From: Gallionella sp.
GTDB taxonomy: Bacteria; Pseudomonadota; Gammaproteobacteria; Burkholderiales; Gallionellaceae
Length of the DNA: 64,000 bases
Reading direction: 5' to 3'
NCBI GenBank assembly: GCA_028710565.1
Contig: JAQTTV010000018.1
Location: 1-64,000, forward strand
The notes under the pieces: model-generated
The model's input: only the letters and a program-made list of their open reading frames with translations
The model's database searches: none
What the model was told of the DNA's origin: nothing
Shown here: positions 917 through 59,006 of the stretch, one piece after another
Position numbering within the stretch: position 1 is the stretch's first letter
How the letters are laid out: each line of letters begins with the position of its first letter
Made by a program: the position numbers and the translations under genes

Positions 917-3181
917 ATGAACTCTACTCTCCTAGCCAACCTCAATCCTCCCCAACTCCAAGCTGTCACCCTCCCGCACCAGTCCGCGCTGATTTTGGCG
1001 GGGGCGGGGAGTGGGAAGACGCGGGTTTTAACCACGCGCATTGCTTATTTGGTGAGCCATGATGGCGTGCCTGCGAATCGCATTTTGGCGGTTACCTTTA
1101 CCAATAAGGCGGCGAAGGAGATGTTGACGCGGCTGTCGGCGATGTTGCCGATTCATCCGCAGGGCTTGTGGATCGGGACGTTTCACGGCTTGTGTAATCG
1201 GCTGTTGCGCACGCATTATTTTGAGGCGAATCTGCCCAAGACTTTTCAGATTTTGGATAGCAGCGATCAGTTGTCGGCGATTAAGCGTTTGATGAAATTG
1301 CTGAATGTGGATGATGAAAAGTATCCGCCGCGTGATGTGGCGAATTTTATCAATCGCCACAAAGAACAAGGGCGGCGCGCTGCCGAGGCGGATACCTTTA
1401 GTGCGCATGACAAGCAAAAGGCAGCGATTTTTGCGGAATATGATTTGCAATGCCAGCGCGAAGGCGTGGTGGATTTTGCTGAATTGATGTTGCGCTGTTA
1501 TGAATTGTTGTCGCGCAATGCCGAGCTGCGTGAGCATTATCAAGCGCGCTTTTCGCATATTTTGGTGGATGAATTTCAAGATACCAATAAGCTGCAATAT
1601 CAATGGCTTAAGTTGTTGGCGGGACATCCCTCTCCTCAATCCTCTCCCGCAAGCGGGCGAGGAGGCGAACGTGAAGGGCGATTTTCGACCGCTGCCTTAT
1701 TCGCCGTGGGCGATGATGACCAGTCTATCTACGCGTTTCGCGGGGCGGATGTGGGAAATATGCGCGAATTGACCCGCGATTTTCACGTTGAAACGGTGAT
1801 TAAGCTGGAGCAGAACTATCGTTCGCACGGCAATATTCTCGACGCGGCGAACGCGCTGATTCAAAACAACCGCAATCGCATGGGCAAAAATCTGTGGACG
1901 GCGGCGGATGGCGGCGAGCCGATTCGGGTGTTTGAAGCCCCGAACGACGTGGAAGAGGCGGCGTATATCGTCGGCGAAATTCAGCAGTTGCACCGCGAAG
2001 GCATGGACTTGAAAGACATCGCCTTGTTGTATCGCTCCAATGCGCAATCGCGGGTGCTGGAACACGCGCTGGTGTCGGCTGGCTTGGCGTATCGCGTGCA
2101 TGGCGGACTGCGCTTTTTTGATCGGTTAGAAATCAAACACACGCTGGCGTATTTGCGCTTGATGGAAAATACCGATGACGATAACGCTTTGTTACGCATC
2201 ATCAATTTTCCCACGCGCGGCATCGGCGCACGCAGCATTGAACAATTGCAAGAAGTCGCCATCCAGCAAGGCACGACCTTGTGGGACGCAGCGGCGCGGG
2301 CAGGTGGCAAAGTGACCGCGTTTGTAGCACTAATCGAATCCATGCGCCACGCGGCGCGTAGTTTGTCTTTGCCCGAAATCATCAGTCACGTGTTGCAACA
2401 CAGCGGGTTGAAAGCGGGCTACGAAAACGAAACGGGGGCGAAACGTGCGGAAGCGCAAGAACGCCTCGCCAACTTAGAAGAGCTGGTCAACGCCGCCGTG
2501 TTGTTTGTGCATGAAAACGAAGACGACAGTTTGACCTCGTTCTTGACCCACGCCTCGCTGGAAAGCGGCGAACATCAAGCGGGCGACCAAGACGACGCGT
2601 TGCATTTGATGACCGTACACGCGGCAAAAGGCTTGGAATTCCACGCGGTGTTTATCAGCGGATTGGAAGAGGGCCTGTTCCCGCACCAAAACAGCCAGCG
2701 CGAAGCCAGTGGCGTGGATGAAGAACGTCGCTTGATGTACGTCGCCATCACCCGTGCGCGCCAGCGTTTGTACCTCAGCTTTGCGCAAAGTCGTATGTTG
2801 CACGGCAAGGTTAATTACGGCGTGGCTTCGTGCTTTTTGGAAGAGTTGCCCGAAGAATTGCTACACTGGATTACCCCCAAACGCACCGCCTTTGCGCCCA
2901 CCTTTACCCCGCAAAATAACCCGTTTGCGACCTACATTTCCCCCGTTTCACGCCCCGTGCCGACTCCCCCGCGCAATCAACGCACGATGGCATCCAGCAC
3001 CCAACGCACGGTCAGCGGCACAGAATGGCGCATTGGGCAAAGCGTGACGCACGCTAAGTTTGGCGATGGCGTGATCGTCAACCTAGAAAGCAGCGGCGCC
3101 GATGCCCGCGTCCAAGTCAAATTCCGCACCGCTGGCGTGAAGTGGTTGTCGTTGGAATATGCTAAGTTGACGGCGGTGTAG
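917..3181 (+). CDS. uvrD: UvrD/PcrA-type ATP-dependent DNA helicase (ORF track opens at 806; ATG at 917 preferred)
   Basis: Walker A AGAGSGKT, VDEFQDTN, VGDDDQSIYAFRGAD, QNYRSH, MTVHAAKGLEF, VAITRARQRL and UvrD-type C-terminal domain. Confidence 0.95.
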   Translation: MNSTLLANLNPPQLQAVTLPHQSALILAGAGSGKTRVLTTRIAYLVSHDGVPANRILAVTFTNKAAKEMLTRLSAMLPIHPQGLWIGTFHGLCNRLLRTHYFEANLPKTFQILDSSDQLSAIKRLMKLLNVDDEKYPPRDVANFINRHKEQGRRAAEADTFSAHDKQKAAIFAEYDLQCQREGVVDFAELMLRCYELLSRNAELREHYQARFSHILVDEFQDTNKLQYQWLKLLAGHPSPQSSPASGRGGEREGRFSTAALFAVGDDDQSIYAFRGADVGNMRELTRDFHVETVIKLEQNYRSHGNILDAANALIQNNRNRMGKNLWTAADGGEPIRVFEAPNDVEEAAYIVGEIQQLHREGMDLKDIALLYRSNAQSRVLEHALVSAGLAYRVHGGLRFFDRLEIKHTLAYLRLMENTDDDNALLRIINFPTRGIGARSIEQLQEVAIQQGTTLWDAAARAGGKVTAFVALIESMRHAARSLSLPEIISHVLQHSGLKAGYENETGAKRAEAQERLANLEELVNAAVLFVHENEDDSLTSFLTHASLESGEHQAGDQDDALHLMTVHAAKGLEFHAVFISGLEEGLFPHQNSQREASGVDEERRLMYVAITRARQRLYLSFAQSRMLHGKVNYGVASCFLEELPEELLHWITPKRTAFAPTFTPQNNPFATYISPVSRPVPTPPRNQRTMASSTQRTVSGTEWRIGQSVTHAKFGDGVIVNLESSGADARVQVKFRTAGVKWLSLEYAKLTAV
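1627..1690. repeat. REP-like palindromic repeat inserted in frame in the uvrD coding sequence
   Basis: ccctctcctcaatcctctcccgcaagcgggcgaggaggcg; encodes HPSPQSSPASGRGGERE between LLAG and the motif III region. Confidence 0.75.
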
Positions 3182-47162: not shown

Positions 47163-47542
47163 TGAGCAACTACGACAGAACAGACCGTGTCGGACAACAG
47201 ATGCAGCGAGAAATCGCAGAACTGGTGCGGTTGCAAATCAATGATCCACGGGTAAAGCTGGTTACGATCACGGGGGTAGAAGTCGCGCGGGATTACTCCC
47301 ATGCTAAGATTTTTTTCACCCGCTTAGATGGTAAGCACGATGAAGCCCTCAAGGGTTTAGAACATGCCAGTGGTTTTTTGCGTAGCCAGCTGTCACGCAG
47401 CCTCAAGTTGCGCATCATGCCGCAGTTGCATTTTGTCTATGACTCGTCTGTCGAGAATGGTAGTTACTTGTCGCAGTTGATCGATAAAGCGGTTGCCAGC
47501 GATAAACTATCAGCAGAGAAAGCAGAACCTTCAGCCGAGTAA
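47162..47542 (+). CDS. rbfA: ribosome-binding factor A
   Basis: DRVGQQMQREIAELVRLQINDPRVKLVTITGVEVARDYSHAKIFF. Confidence 0.97.
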   Translation: MSNYDRTDRVGQQMQREIAELVRLQINDPRVKLVTITGVEVARDYSHAKIFFTRLDGKHDEALKGLEHASGFLRSQLSRSLKLRIMPQLHFVYDSSVENGSYLSQLIDKAVASDKLSAEKAEPSAE

Positions 47543-47549
47543 ATTATCT

Positions 47550-47726
47550 GGTTCTATGTGATTTACAGTGAGTGGAACCTAGTTATACCCCACTCCCATC
47601 CTAAGAAGGGACTATCACCCTCTCCCCTTCAAGGGGAGAGTTGGAGAGTTGGAGAGGGGATGGGGTGGATTCCGCATTTGAAGGCTCACTTGTGCCACGA
47701 TGACCCACTATGATTCACATAGAGCC
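47550..47726. mobile_element. 177-bp MITE-like element with ~21-bp imperfect TIRs and internal REP-like palindrome
   Basis: Left ggttctatgtgatttacagtg; right cactatgattcacatagagcc (revcomp ggctctatgtgaatcatagtg; 17/21 matches); shares ends and interior with 63196..63721. Confidence 0.8.
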
Positions 47727-48750: not shown

Positions 48751-48770
48751 GGCGGCTCGCAGAGATCTGG

Positions 48771-48806
48771 CTCCCCTCACCCGTTTACGGGAGAGGGGTA
48801 GGGGGA
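48771..48806. repeat. REP-like palindrome in the convergent truB/rmuC intergenic region
   Basis: ctcccctcacccgtttacgggagaggggtaggggga. Confidence 0.6.
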
Positions 48807-48820
48807 GCGGACTGGAAACA

Positions 48821-50581
48821 CTACACCTCGTCGATCAATACAATCGGCAGCTCTTTGTCCTCTAACATTTCCACAGACTCGATTTTGGCAAAATGACTGC
48901 TGATTTTTTTGCTGGAAATTTCAACTTGTGAGGCTTCGTCGTTGGCGCGACGGATATTGTCAGCAAGTTTTTTCATGCGTTCATCGAAGCGTTTGAAATC
49001 AACACTCAGCCCGCCCAAGGCTTTTTGAATAATGTGCACTTGCTCGCGCATTTTCACATCCTTCATGACCGCCCGCGCCGTGTTCAACACCGCCATTAAG
49101 GTGGTAGGTGACACAATCCAGATATGTTTTTGCATGGCGTATTCGACTAAATCGCCGTGGTAGGCGTGTATCTCGGCGAACACCGCTTCGGCGGGTAAAA
49201 ACATCACCGCGCCATCTGAGGTTTCATTTTTAATCAAATACTTGCTGCTGATGTCGTCGATGTGTTTGCGTATATCCAGCTTGAATTGTCGGCGGGCGAT
49301 TTGCTTGTCGGATTCCGCCAAATCGGATTCCAACATACGGTGGTAATTTTCCAGCGGGAATTTGGCATCGACGGGGACGTTGCCCGTGGGCGACGGCAGA
49401 ATCAGCAAGCAATCCACGCGGCTGCCGTTGGAGAGTTTTTCTTGGAAACGATAAGAGTCAGGTGGCAAAATGTTGCGCACCAAGCCTTCCAGTTGCACTT
49501 CACCAAACGCGCCGCGTGAACGTTTATCGCCCAACAACGCTTGCAAACTCACCACGTTGGTGGTCAATCCGTCGATTTTTTTCTGCGCTTCGTCGATGGT
49601 GGCGAGGCGCGTCATCACATTGGTAAACGTCTCGTTTGTTTTCTTAAAACCTTCGTCCAAGCGTTCCGCCACTTTGCCTGAAATTTGCTCCAGTCGCGCA
49701 TCGGTGCTTTGCGTCAGCCCCGTGATGCTTTGCGTCAGCATTTCTGTATTGCGATGCATCGTGCCTTGAATCAAGGCTTGATCCGCACGGCCTTGCTCCG
49801 CCAAGGTTTCCAAGGTTTTCTTGACCAGCTCAATGCGCATCTCTTCTTGCTTGGCTTGCAAACCTGCCGACAACTGCGCCAATTGGGTCAACAAGGCTTC
49901 GCGCGTTTCCGCCAAACCCGACTGTTGCGCCAATTGCAAAGCTTGCATGGCTTCGCGAGTTAAATTCAAACCTTGTGTGACATGGGCAAAGGTTTCGGTG
50001 GTTTTCTTAAAGCCTTCGTCCAAGCGTTCCGCCACTTTGCCCGCGATTTGTTCCAGTCGCGCATCGGTGCTTTGCGTCAATCCCGCGATGCTTTGCGTCA
50101 ACAATTCGGTGCTGCGCTGCATGGTGGTTTGAATCATGGCTTGATCGGCGCGCCCTTGTTCTGCCAAGGTTTCCAGCGTTTTACCGACGATTTCCACACG
50201 CAGCGCGTCTTGCTTGGTTTGCAAATCCGCCGACAATTGGGCTAATTGCGCCAAGATGGCTTCACGCGTATCCGCCAAACTGCGATGTTGCGCCAATTGC
50301 AAAGCCTGCACTGCGTCACGGGTTTGGGTTAATTCTTGTGTGACGGAATCACGCAACCGCGCAGCACTTTCGGCATTGGCTTGAACCATGCGGTCGCCCA
50401 ATTGGTTTAAGCCTTGGTGCAAATCGCTTAACATCAAGCGATGACGCGCTTCTAACCCTTGGTTCAATGCCTCCGACATTTGACCTTGCGAACCGCGCAA
50501 CAGCGCGATGAGCCACGCCAATGCAGCCAAAACAATCAACAGCAATACCAACATTACAATTTCTATCATTACTTCATCCAA
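48821..50581 (-). CDS. rmuC: RmuC-family DNA recombination protein with internal tandem duplication
   Basis: Coiled-coil N-half; KRSRGAFGEVQLEGLVRNILPPDSYRFQEKLSNGSRVDCLLILPSPTGNVPVDAKFPLENY. Confidence 0.93.
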   Translation of the reverse strand: MDEVMIEIVMLVLLLIVLAALAWLIALLRGSQGQMSEALNQGLEARHRLMLSDLHQGLNQLGDRMVQANAESAARLRDSVTQELTQTRDAVQALQLAQHRSLADTREAILAQLAQLSADLQTKQDALRVEIVGKTLETLAEQGRADQAMIQTTMQRSTELLTQSIAGLTQSTDARLEQIAGKVAERLDEGFKKTTETFAHVTQGLNLTREAMQALQLAQQSGLAETREALLTQLAQLSAGLQAKQEEMRIELVKKTLETLAEQGRADQALIQGTMHRNTEMLTQSITGLTQSTDARLEQISGKVAERLDEGFKKTNETFTNVMTRLATIDEAQKKIDGLTTNVVSLQALLGDKRSRGAFGEVQLEGLVRNILPPDSYRFQEKLSNGSRVDCLLILPSPTGNVPVDAKFPLENYHRMLESDLAESDKQIARRQFKLDIRKHIDDISSKYLIKNETSDGAVMFLPAEAVFAEIHAYHGDLVEYAMQKHIWIVSPTTLMAVLNTARAVMKDVKMREQVHIIQKALGGLSVDFKRFDERMKKLADNIRRANDEASQVEISSKKISSHFAKIESVEMLEDKELPIVLIDEV

Positions 50582-55738: not shown

Positions 55739-55857
55739 TCTCGGAGCTGTGTTTTTGGGTGCGTATATCCCATTTAATCTTAAAAATGAGACGTGCTCCC
55801 TCCACTAAACGACCAAAAGCGTACACTTCGCATTCTCTGAATCGAGGGGGGTGTATC

Positions 55858-58110
55858 ATGGAAAACGAGAAACAGGCTTATCTAGCGCATGTGCGTTTAT
55901 TGCCCAATGGGCAATGGGCTGAGCATACTTTGGACGAGCATTTGCGCGAGGTCGCGAAACTGGCAGGGGAATTTGCCGAGCCGTTTAATAGTGCGGACTG
56001 GGCGGCGTTGGCGGGTTTGTGGCACGACTTGGGTAAATACAGCAACGAATTTCAACGCTATATCAAAACCGTCAGTGGCTACGATGCCGAAGCGCATATC
56101 GAAGGCGTGAATCGAGTCGATCACTCCACGGCGGGCGCGCTATATGCCATGCGGCAGTTGGGTAAACACGGGCGGATTTTGGCGTATTTGATTGCGGGGC
56201 ATCATGCGGGGCTGCCTGACTGGTCGATGGAGGATGCGGGCGCAACTGCCTTGGTTCACCGACTTAAACCCGAACAAAACCATTTGCTGGATCGCATTCC
56301 TGAACAGGTGATGCCCGCCGACATCCTGACCCAAACCAAACCCAGCTCCCGTCCACGCGGCAATGCAGACGGGCTGCATTTATGGTTACGGATGCTATTT
56401 TCCTGTTTGGTGGATGCGGACTTTTTGGATACCGAAGCCTTTATGGATGCGCAAAAGGCGACATCCCGCACGGGCTACCAAAATTTATCCGAGTTGCTAA
56501 CCCTGTTCGATGCCTGCATGGCAAAAAAATCCGCCGACGCGCCGAACACGCCCGTCAATGCCATTCGCGCCGAGATTCTGCGCCAATGCCGCGAAAAAGC
56601 GGCACAACCCTCTGGATTGTTTTCGCTCACCGTCCCCACGGGCGGCGGCAAAACCTTATCGGGTATGGCATTCGCCTTGCAGCACGCCGTGCAACATCAA
56701 AAATCGCGCATCATTTACGTCATTCCCTACACCAGCATCATCGAGCAGACGGCAGGGATTTTTGGGGAAATTTTCGGTAAAAATGTGGTGGAACATCACG
56801 CTAACCTTGATCCCGACAAGGAAGATGCGCGGGCGCGTTTGGCAACCGAAAACTGGGACGCGCCCATCATCGTCACCACCAATGTGCAATTTTTTGAATC
56901 CCTGTTCGCCGCCCGTACCAGTCGTTGCCGCAAGCTACACAACATCGTCAACAGCGTGGTGGTATTGGACGAAGCACAACTGTTGCCCGCCGAATTTTTG
57001 CAGCCGATTGCCGATGTGATGAACCAATTGGCAAAAAACTACGGTGTCACTTTTGTCCTTTCAACTGCCACGCAACCCGCCTTGGGGTCGTTCCAAACCT
57101 TTGGCAATCTTGAATTTCGTGGCTTGGATAACGTACAAGAAATCATGGATGACCCCGACGCGCTGTATCAAAATTTAAAACGCGTGGAAGTCAGTTTGCC
57201 CAGCGATTTACAAACGCCGCAAACTTGGCAAAACATCGCTGACGAATTGCTGAAACATCCCAGCGTGCTGTGCATCGTCAGCCGCCGCGATGATGCGCGG
57301 GAACTGTATCGCTTGCTGGTCAAAGCAGACCCCAACACCATTCACCTGTCCGCGCTGATGTGCGGGCAACATCGCAGCACGGTGATTGCCGACATTAAAG
57401 CCCGTTTGCAACGCCAAGAATCGGTGCGCGTGATTAGTACCCAACTGGTTGAAGCGGGAGTGGATGTGGATTTTCCTGTGGTGTATCGCACCTTGGCGGG
57501 GCTGGATTCCATCGCCCAAGCGGCGGGACGTTGCAACCGCGAAGGGGGGCTAAAAGATTCTGACGGCGTTTCTATCAAGGGGCGCGTCGTCGTTTTTGTG
57601 CCGCCCAAACCCGCGCCAATCGGGATATTACGCCAAGCGGCGGGCATTTCGGTCAGTTTGCTGCATGGCTATCGAGGCGAGGTGTTAAGTCGCGCCTTGG
57701 CAGGCAAATTTTTTGAACACCTCTACCAACAAGCGCATTCATTGGACAAACACGGCATTCACACCTTGCTCACCCAAGATGCGCGGGAATGCCAAATCCA
57801 ATTCCGCACCGTGGCAGAGAAATTCAAGCTCATCGACGACACCGCTTATCAAACCATTCTGGTACGCTACGGGGACAGCCCTGCCCTGCTGCAAACCTTG
57901 GCAAGCATCGGTCCGAAACGCGAGGTGATGCGCAAATTACAACGATATGCGGTGAACGTGCCAAAATTTGTCTTTGCACAACTGGAAAAACAAGGCGATG
58001 TGGTGCAAATTTGGACGGGAATTTATGCGCAAGTGGGCGATGTGTTGTATGACAAAAAGCTAGGTCTAGTGATTGATGGTAGCATCGCCCCTGATGAGCT
58101 GGCTATCTAA
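55858..58110 (+). CDS. cas3: type I-C CRISPR-associated nuclease/helicase Cas3 (HD + helicase)
   Basis: HD motif LAGLWHDLGKYSNEFQRY, GHHAGL; helicase LTVPTGGGKTLSGMAFAL, VVVLDEAQLLP, QAAGRCNREG. Confidence 0.97.
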   Translation: MENEKQAYLAHVRLLPNGQWAEHTLDEHLREVAKLAGEFAEPFNSADWAALAGLWHDLGKYSNEFQRYIKTVSGYDAEAHIEGVNRVDHSTAGALYAMRQLGKHGRILAYLIAGHHAGLPDWSMEDAGATALVHRLKPEQNHLLDRIPEQVMPADILTQTKPSSRPRGNADGLHLWLRMLFSCLVDADFLDTEAFMDAQKATSRTGYQNLSELLTLFDACMAKKSADAPNTPVNAIRAEILRQCREKAAQPSGLFSLTVPTGGGKTLSGMAFALQHAVQHQKSRIIYVIPYTSIIEQTAGIFGEIFGKNVVEHHANLDPDKEDARARLATENWDAPIIVTTNVQFFESLFAARTSRCRKLHNIVNSVVVLDEAQLLPAEFLQPIADVMNQLAKNYGVTFVLSTATQPALGSFQTFGNLEFRGLDNVQEIMDDPDALYQNLKRVEVSLPSDLQTPQTWQNIADELLKHPSVLCIVSRRDDARELYRLLVKADPNTIHLSALMCGQHRSTVIADIKARLQRQESVRVISTQLVEAGVDVDFPVVYRTLAGLDSIAQAAGRCNREGGLKDSDGVSIKGRVVVFVPPKPAPIGILRQAAGISVSLLHGYRGEVLSRALAGKFFEHLYQQAHSLDKHGIHTLLTQDARECQIQFRTVAEKFKLIDDTAYQTILVRYGDSPALLQTLASIGPKREVMRKLQRYAVNVPKFVFAQLEKQGDVVQIWTGIYAQVGDVLYDKKLGLVIDGSIAPDELAI

Positions 58111-58138: not shown

Positions 58139-58239
58139 CCTTCCCCCTAGCAGGGGGAAGGCTGGGATGGGGGTTGAAAGTTTGCATACATGCGACGATT
58201 TCTACCCCCACCCTAACCCTCCCCCTGCTAGGGGGAGGG
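58139..58239. repeat. pair of inverted REP-like palindromes (REPIN-like) between cas3 and cas5
   Basis: ccttccccctagcagggggaaggctgggatggggg ... cccccaccctaaccctccccctgctagggggaggg. Confidence 0.8.
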
Positions 58240-58280
58240 AATATGACCGCATGGAACGCAATGAATTTAAAAAGGAAAAT

Positions 58281-59006
58281 ATGAAAACCTTTTGTTTAGA
58301 AATCTCAGGCGATTTTGCTTGTTTTACCCGCCCTGAAATGAAAGTCGAGCGGGTGAGTTACGACATCATCACGCCTTCTGCTGCGCGGGCGGTATTCGAG
58401 GCTATCTTGTGGAAGCCCGCGTTGCGCTGGCGAGTCACCAAAATCGAAGTGCTCAAACCGATTAAGTGGATCACCTTGCGGCGCAATGAAGTCGGTGCGG
58501 TGGTGTCGTCACGCAATGTGCAATCTGCCATGAACAGCGGCAGCGGCGACTTGGGCTTGTATATCGAAGACGAACGCCAGCAACGGGCGGGGCTATTTTT
58601 GCGCGACGTAGCTTATCGGATTCATGCGGGATTTGAATTGGTCGATGGCAGCAAACACAAACCCAACCATCCCCACCTCGTTAAACACCCCATTCAAGAT
58701 GCCGACGAACAACGCGCCGCCGATGCCGCCAACTCCCCCGCCAAATTTCTGAATATGTTTGAACGCCGCGCCCGCAAAGGGCAATGCGTCAACCAACCCT
58801 ATCTAGGCTGCCGCGAATTTGCTTGTGATTTTCGCCTTGTCGAAGACCTTGCCGCCGAACCTGCACCGATTGCCGAAACCCGCGATTTAGGTTGGATGCT
58901 GCACGATATGGATTACCGCAATCCAACCAGCCCGAACCCGCGTTTTTTCCGCGCCGAGTTGAACAACGGCGTGCTGGATTTGAGTAATGTGGAGGTGCGG
59001 GGATGA
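58281..59006 (+). CDS. cas5c: type I-C Cas5 (Cas5c/d)
   Basis: MKTFCLEISGDFACFTRPEMKVERVSYDIITPSAARAVFEAILWKPALRWRVTKIEVLKPI. Confidence 0.96.
   Translation: MKTFCLEISGDFACFTRPEMKVERVSYDIITPSAARAVFEAILWKPALRWRVTKIEVLKPIKWITLRRNEVGAVVSSRNVQSAMNSGSGDLGLYIEDERQQRAGLFLRDVAYRIHAGFELVDGSKHKPNHPHLVKHPIQDADEQRAADAANSPAKFLNMFERRARKGQCVNQPYLGCREFACDFRLVEDLAAEPAPIAETRDLGWMLHDMDYRNPTSPNPRFFRAELNNGVLDLSNVEVRG

Follow-up and report, generated by a model that had tools for sequence, protein, structure and literature searches.

The uvrD gene in this stretch of Gallionella DNA carries 69 nt that are, as a whole, best explained as a recently inserted mobile palindromic element, which we call Type I; judging from sequence comparisons, we assign this reading a probability of roughly 0.86. 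The window, i.e. the whole stretch analyzed, comprises positions 1 to 64,000 of the forward strand of contig JAQTTV010000018.1 (Gallionella sp., GCA_028710565.1) and belongs to a 99.99%-complete genome of 3.27 Mb, referred to as G000. The gene, its insert and a further member of the palindrome family from the window have the following coordinates.

917..3181, plus strand: uvrD, encoding a UvrD/PcrA-type SF1 DNA helicase of 754 aa including the insert (open reading frame, translation, Pfam, match to E. coli UvrD).
1625..1693, plus strand: Type I palindromic element, 69 nt or 23 codons, HPSPQSSPASGRGGEREGRFSTA, in place of 9 nt (TKN) of the ancestral loop (empty site in the sister species G023; the element recurs across the genus).
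1641..1662, plus strand: hairpin core CCTCTCCCGCAAGCGGGCGAGG of the uvrD element (exact repeat in the genome and the genus; predicted stem).
1694..1702, plus strand: restart of the host sequence, codons A-L-F of ALFAVGDDDQ, motif III strand (alignment to G023 and other UvrD proteins).
48764..48805, minus strand: second copy of the family, intergenic between truB-like and rmuC-like ORFs (repeat search).

The identity of the host gene is clear from Pfam matches to UvrD-helicase (2.1e-81) and UvrD_C (8.3e-80), along with PcrA_UvrD_tudor, and from the match to the E. coli UvrD structure 2is1 (E 9e-179). The insert is located between UvrD motifs II and III: the left border reads ...QWLKLLAG, with host DNA up to 1624, and the right border is ALFAVGDDDQSIY from 1694. 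The initial annotation had described a palindrome at 1627-1690, translated in frame within the UvrD ORF; sequence and frame are as claimed (translation HPSPQSSPASGRGGEREGRFST), and the limits, which were good to a few bases, are here refined to 1625-1693. The uvrD copy agrees with the Type I consensus at 59 of 68 positions. Compared with shuffled sequences, the RNA fold of the insert is not exceptional (z = 0.13 over 81 nt); hence the case for an element rests on its repetition and on the empty site, not on folding.

The empty site is found in the sister species G023, whose UvrD is 97% identical and reads LLAG-TKN-ALFAV where G000 has LLAG-HPSPQSSPASGRGGEREGRFSTA-ALFAV. At the DNA level, 9 nt stand against 69 nt, with 92-93% identity in the flanking DNA on both sides, and the net gain of 60 nt bears out the claim that about 20 residues were added without breaking the frame. 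E. coli UvrD (2is1, 3lfu) likewise aligns with a clean 20-residue gap at this position, and most genus members as well as the wider UvrD homologs possess a short loop there. According to these alignments the insertion is lineage-specific, as had been proposed, being absent from the sister species, from most of the genus and from E. coli; its residues are not conserved in distant UvrD proteins, such conservation being what the initial annotation had named as counter-evidence. Between G000 and G023, the insert is new in the UvrD of G000. No target-site duplication was seen at the empty sites of uvrD and AcnA.

The repetition is that of a dispersed palindrome family. With at most 2 mismatches, the 17-mer core CCTCTCCCGCAAGCGGG gives 144 matches on both strands of the 3.27-Mb genome as opposed to 3 for a reversed-pattern control, and the 22-nt core with a free 6-nt loop, CCTCTCCCN6GGGCGAGG, gives 164 matches with at most 1 mismatch as opposed to 0; in such counts a near-symmetric palindrome may be registered on both strands. 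The genomes of relatives contain between 0 and more than 60 core matches each. Type I was defined by aligning the copies that share the tail GCGAACG. Its unit is CCCTCWCCTCAATCCTCTCCCGCAAGCGGGMGAGGRRGCGAACGAGAAARNCAATCTTCAATCCCT, preceded by 3 variable bases, with which it amounts to 69 nt or 23 codons, and the consensus reads NNN CCC TCW CCT CAA TCC TCT CCC GCA AGC GGG MGA GGR RGC GAA CGA GAA ARN CAA TCT TCA ATC CCT. The base that follows is a host G in 41 of 41 copies, usually as part of GC. A strict Type I pattern has 135 matches in 32 of the 61 genus genomes, which are mostly draft or metagenome assemblies, and its reversed control has none; outside the genus, a single sampled genome of the order, from the same family, contains a match. 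A search of plasmids with the element peptide gave no match. In G000, some family members form inverted doublets (L002, L006, L007, L010, and pairs spaced by about 65-75 nt). At one contig end (G000:C29:4, 303, 602), palindrome cores recur every 299 bases exactly, which may mean either a tandem array or an artifact of assembly.

Other repeats were observed in the window. A palindrome at 58206-58240 (CCCTCCCCCTGCTAGGGGGAGGGA) falls into the 5' part of ORF 58167-59006, which follows a cas3-like ORF (55759-58110); a Cas5-like start downstream of it (KENMKTFCLE) is probably the true one, and this palindrome is therefore likely intergenic. The rmuC-like coding gene contains a 300-nt direct repeat with 82% identity (49617-50279).

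How the element moves is a further question. RAYT transposases are the known partners of REPs, and Type I could in principle be a classical REP/REPIN that was mobilized by such a Y1 tyrosine transposase and entered the gene by accident. We consider this explanation unlikely. In its favor, the inverted doublets in G000 have a REPIN-like spacing, Y1 genes occur in 51 of the 61 genus genomes, and their presence (Fisher p 0.037) and number (rho 0.45) correlate with those of Type I. Yet the 99.99%-complete genome G000 gave no PF01797 match, i.e. it is without a Y1/RAYT gene; the palindrome core is absent from 20 Y1 loci of relatives, and none of 23 such loci has the palindrome motif on both sides. 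Fifteen of these 23 Y1 genes are indeed flanked by inverted repeats, but not by those of the palindrome motif. Moreover, a GTAG or CGTC tag is present near either end in only 2 of 42 copies. RAYT as the mobility factor is not supported by these data.

A different candidate is encoded near the end of the window, where a nuclease gene is enclosed by the same palindromes.

63228..63269, no strand: left palindrome module CTCCCTCTCCTTCAAGGGGAGGGTTGGGGGTGGGGATGGGGT of the DUF559 unit (read from sequence; flank analysis).
63274..63699, plus strand: DUF559 ORF (PF04480, Vsr-like nuclease), 141 aa by eye (PF04480 match G000:C69:63313-63618, E 4.3e-35).
63636..63676, no strand: right palindrome module, an inverted copy of the left one (read from sequence).

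The inverted modules are near-perfect, their limits being set by eye, and the last codons of the ORF run in frame through the right palindrome (IPHPHPNPPLEGEGDCALVPR). With 14 DUF559 matches, G000 has the most in the genus sample. Across the genus, 19 of 26 DUF559 genes have the palindrome on either side of them and 24 of 26 on at least one side; both-side flanking occurs in 0.4% of random windows. Beyond the genus, inverted flank matches scoring at least 12 accompany 18 of 26 DUF559 genes from the order, mostly of the type CTCCCTCTCCC...GGGAGAGGGTTGGGG, which is the palindrome class of the genus. UvrD flanks give 0 of 24. In the doublets of G000, the palindromes are oriented as they are around DUF559 genes, and a spacer of about 20 nt stands where the gene would be; these doublets could be internal-deletion derivatives of DUF559 units. 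The number of DUF559 genes correlates with the number of palindromes (rho 0.55, or 0.63 in more complete genomes) and with that of Type I (rho 0.41, or 0.53 in more complete genomes), and Y1 number predicts palindromes nearly as well (rho 0.45-0.48), all values being uncorrected for relatedness. Two further repeat pairs each have one member upstream of the truB-like ORF and the other, about 16 kb away, in the DUF559 region (47684-47725 and 63680-63721, 93% identical; 47540-47570 and 63186-63216, 87% identical).

On this basis we regard DUF559 as a mobility factor as a lead of moderate strength, not as a result. Movement would take place in trans, for which DUF559-type units flanked by the same palindromes are the most likely source, a proposal we rate at somewhat below even odds. 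A more far-reaching model is slightly more tentative: the palindromes may be non-autonomous offspring of a mobile unit with a DUF559 (Vsr-like) nuclease, an arrangement like that of REP and RAYT but built on a different enzyme, and one branch of 69 nt may have specialized for survival in a single frame inside protein genes. A literature search within one library of papers, for in-frame palindromes in Gallionella and for DUF559 with palindromes, found nothing relevant.

The uvrD insert could also be old and inherited, having been lost in most relatives. Such a history would account for the presence of Type I in the same UvrD loop of several species, and the junction of G062 is nearly alike (LLAG-V-PSPQ...STS-ALFAV). 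The distribution of inserts in the loop between motifs II and III is nevertheless hard to reconcile with common descent. Palindromic inserts of differing types are present in G005, G027, G062, L071, G020, G012, G016, G032 and G056, and likewise in G069 (from the survey of ORF copies), while G002, G003 and G011 carry inserts of other sequence; the sister species and the nearest other branches have none. Even between the sister carriers G027 and G062, which are 94% identical, both junctions differ. On trees built without the loop, the presence of an insert changes 7-10 times, and at least 7 changes are forced by well-supported branches. Loss alone would require many precise excisions. We therefore hold an old insert to be improbable; the pattern indicates that the same UvrD loop was apparently invaded repeatedly. 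A second insertion place in UvrD is observed in G001, G006, G011 and G013 (L061, L062, L063, L064), near residue 484 in three of them and at 451 in G013. In G021 (G021:C3:106551), a palindrome core lies inside the 3' part of uvrD.

The suggestion that the insert maps to a surface loop fits the predicted structure. In an AlphaFold2 model based on 30 homologs, residues 241-254 have pLDDT values below 50 and form coil between a helix (225-235) and a strand (260-266). The overall model is of modest quality (pTM 0.52), with local helix and strand as expected for the fold; the insert is accordingly predicted to be a disordered loop that separates motif II from motif III.

UvrD is only one of many proteins to harbor such inserts. 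Members of the wider family are found in frame in G000 in UvrD, MutS (as an inverted doublet), MetG (two), GatB, AcnA, a two-domain oligopeptide ABC ATPase, an FAD-linked oxidase/FeS protein, HsdR, HsdM, HrpA, an RlmN-like protein and haemagglutinin-like proteins. In the genus as a whole, Type I itself is in frame in MutL, MetG, GatB, PheT, MurE, PurL, GlnE, RlmN, AcnA, an ATP synthase gamma-like protein, a P-type ATPase, an AMP-ligase, a D-Ala-D-Ala carboxypeptidase and others. Host ORFs were called by their open frame, and for a subset only, Pfam domains that adjoin or span the insert confirm the gene; outside the Pfam matches, the gene names are presumed from the sequences. The inserts differ in age. 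Those of GatB, HrpA, MetG and the FAD-oxidase are common to G000 and G023 and well preserved, MutS has a single element in G023 and a doublet in G000, and in AcnA both species share an old in-frame palindrome, in whose hairpin loop a Type I copy is nested in G000 only (L026 vs L266). By eye, about one third of the Type I copies are nested in the loop of an older palindrome, and there is a modest excess of complementary flanks (10 copies with at least 8 pairs, as opposed to 5.2 for permuted flanks). As in UvrD, one site has been re-used in GatB and one in MetG. A hairpin at the empty uvrD site was considered as the target and rejected, the site having no notable hairpin (z -0.5); hence the hairpin-loop targeting suggested by nested copies fails to explain the uvrD insertion.

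A strong reading-frame preference is seen among these copies. In a sample of 86 Type I copies, 58 lie in long ORFs, and of these, 50 are in frame +0, 5 in +1 and 3 in all minus frames together. The dominant frame, on the same strand, is stop-free and reads PSPQSSPASGRGGERExQSSIP. Four of the six frames of the consensus are open, and even use would give about 14 copies in any one of them; the binomial p of about 1e-22 is indicative only, because orthologous copies are not phylogenetically independent. The peptides encoded by the remaining open frames are hydrophobic or very basic, and the most economical interpretation is that the benign frame alone survives selection. In a phosphotransferase-like gene, Type I is read in the second open frame (PLPNPLPQAGEGAN) in three apparently orthologous copies (L278, L357, L372), which are the main exception to the single-frame rule.

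These properties suggest how the insertion could be tolerated. In one strand and frame, the element would encode a hydrophilic, disorder-prone peptide; since its length is divisible by three and this frame is stop-free and benign, insertion before the Ala codon in the loop leaves a translatable enzyme, which, with its floppy loop, is presumably functional. Copies in damaging frames or places would be purged by selection, and the survivors would be loop inserts in the benign frame. The UvrD protein is expected to be made with the insert included. The contrary proposal, that the palindrome is removed or skipped at the RNA or translation level to give a normal UvrD protein, is very improbable; bypass of an mRNA hairpin is possible in principle, but frame and stops would then not matter, contrary to the 50 of 58 ORF-embedded copies in one stop-free frame. 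Finally, although template switching is one route by which palindromes arise, a purely local origin in uvrD, by this route or by duplication and without mobility, is refuted by the dispersal of near-identical copies, which occupy unrelated sites in 32 of 61 genomes, and has practically no probability left.

The recent insertion of a mobile Type I element, as the preferred reading, has several implications. Rickettsia and a few scattered REPs have provided the best-known cases of in-frame palindromic inserts, with no enzyme known to explain them; the physical link between palindromes and DUF559 offers a tangible candidate for the enzyme that would move them and, conversely, suggests what DUF559, a common family of unknown function, might do. 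Because the genus includes many sequenced species with gains, nesting and re-use of loops, the insertion rate and the selection on coding inserts become measurable. For annotation, SPQSSPASGRG or PLPQAGEG stretches in proteins of the genus should be taken as element-derived, not as conserved. Already known are in-frame palindromic inserts in Rickettsia and REPs inside genes including the UvrD/REP helicase (PMC3733652). New are the palindrome family, its 69-nt single-frame form that is nearly confined to one genus, and the nesting in older coding palindromes, as well as the repeated invasion of the same UvrD loop, as judged from the trees, and the DUF559 link.

Among the known systems, MITEs resemble Type I as small non-autonomous repeats but differ from its single 69-nt form, which is without long terminal inverted repeats and without target-site duplication at UvrD or AcnA. 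REP/REPIN elements and their RAYTs (e.g. PMC2817692) share the small hairpin repeats, the inverted doublets and a gene flanked by repeats; the flanked gene here, however, is a DUF559 nuclease and not a Y1 transposase. A further comparison is with the GTAG/CGTC REPs, which Di Nocera et al. 2013 reported inside ORFs, many of them DNA repair genes including the UvrD/REP helicase (PMC3733652). The CGTC REPs have no dedicated transposase and occur as dimers and singles (PMC3733652), and the main text of that paper makes no mention of Gallionella, of a single-frame coding unit or of a DUF559 link. With these REPs, Type I has in common the ORF-internal palindromes in DNA repair genes including the UvrD/REP helicase and the presence of dimers and singles, but its ends are without a GTAG or CGTC tag.

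The likeness in principle to Rickettsia palindromic elements, proposed at the outset, is supported: members of the family are in frame in housekeeping genes of unrelated function (UvrD, MutL, MutS, MetG, GatB, PheT and others), and Type I has one preferred reading frame (50/58 ORF-embedded copies). The Rickettsia elements are not known to have a transposase. RPE-1 and its like are dispersed palindromes in frame in unrelated protein genes (PMC3733652), whereas Type I belongs to a betaproteobacterial genus, measures 69 nt, has related extragenic copies, nests in the loops of older palindromes and is linked to DUF559. There is good support for the view that Type I behaves as a Rickettsia palindromic element does, and we would file it in this sense as RPE-like rather than as a member of an RPE family.
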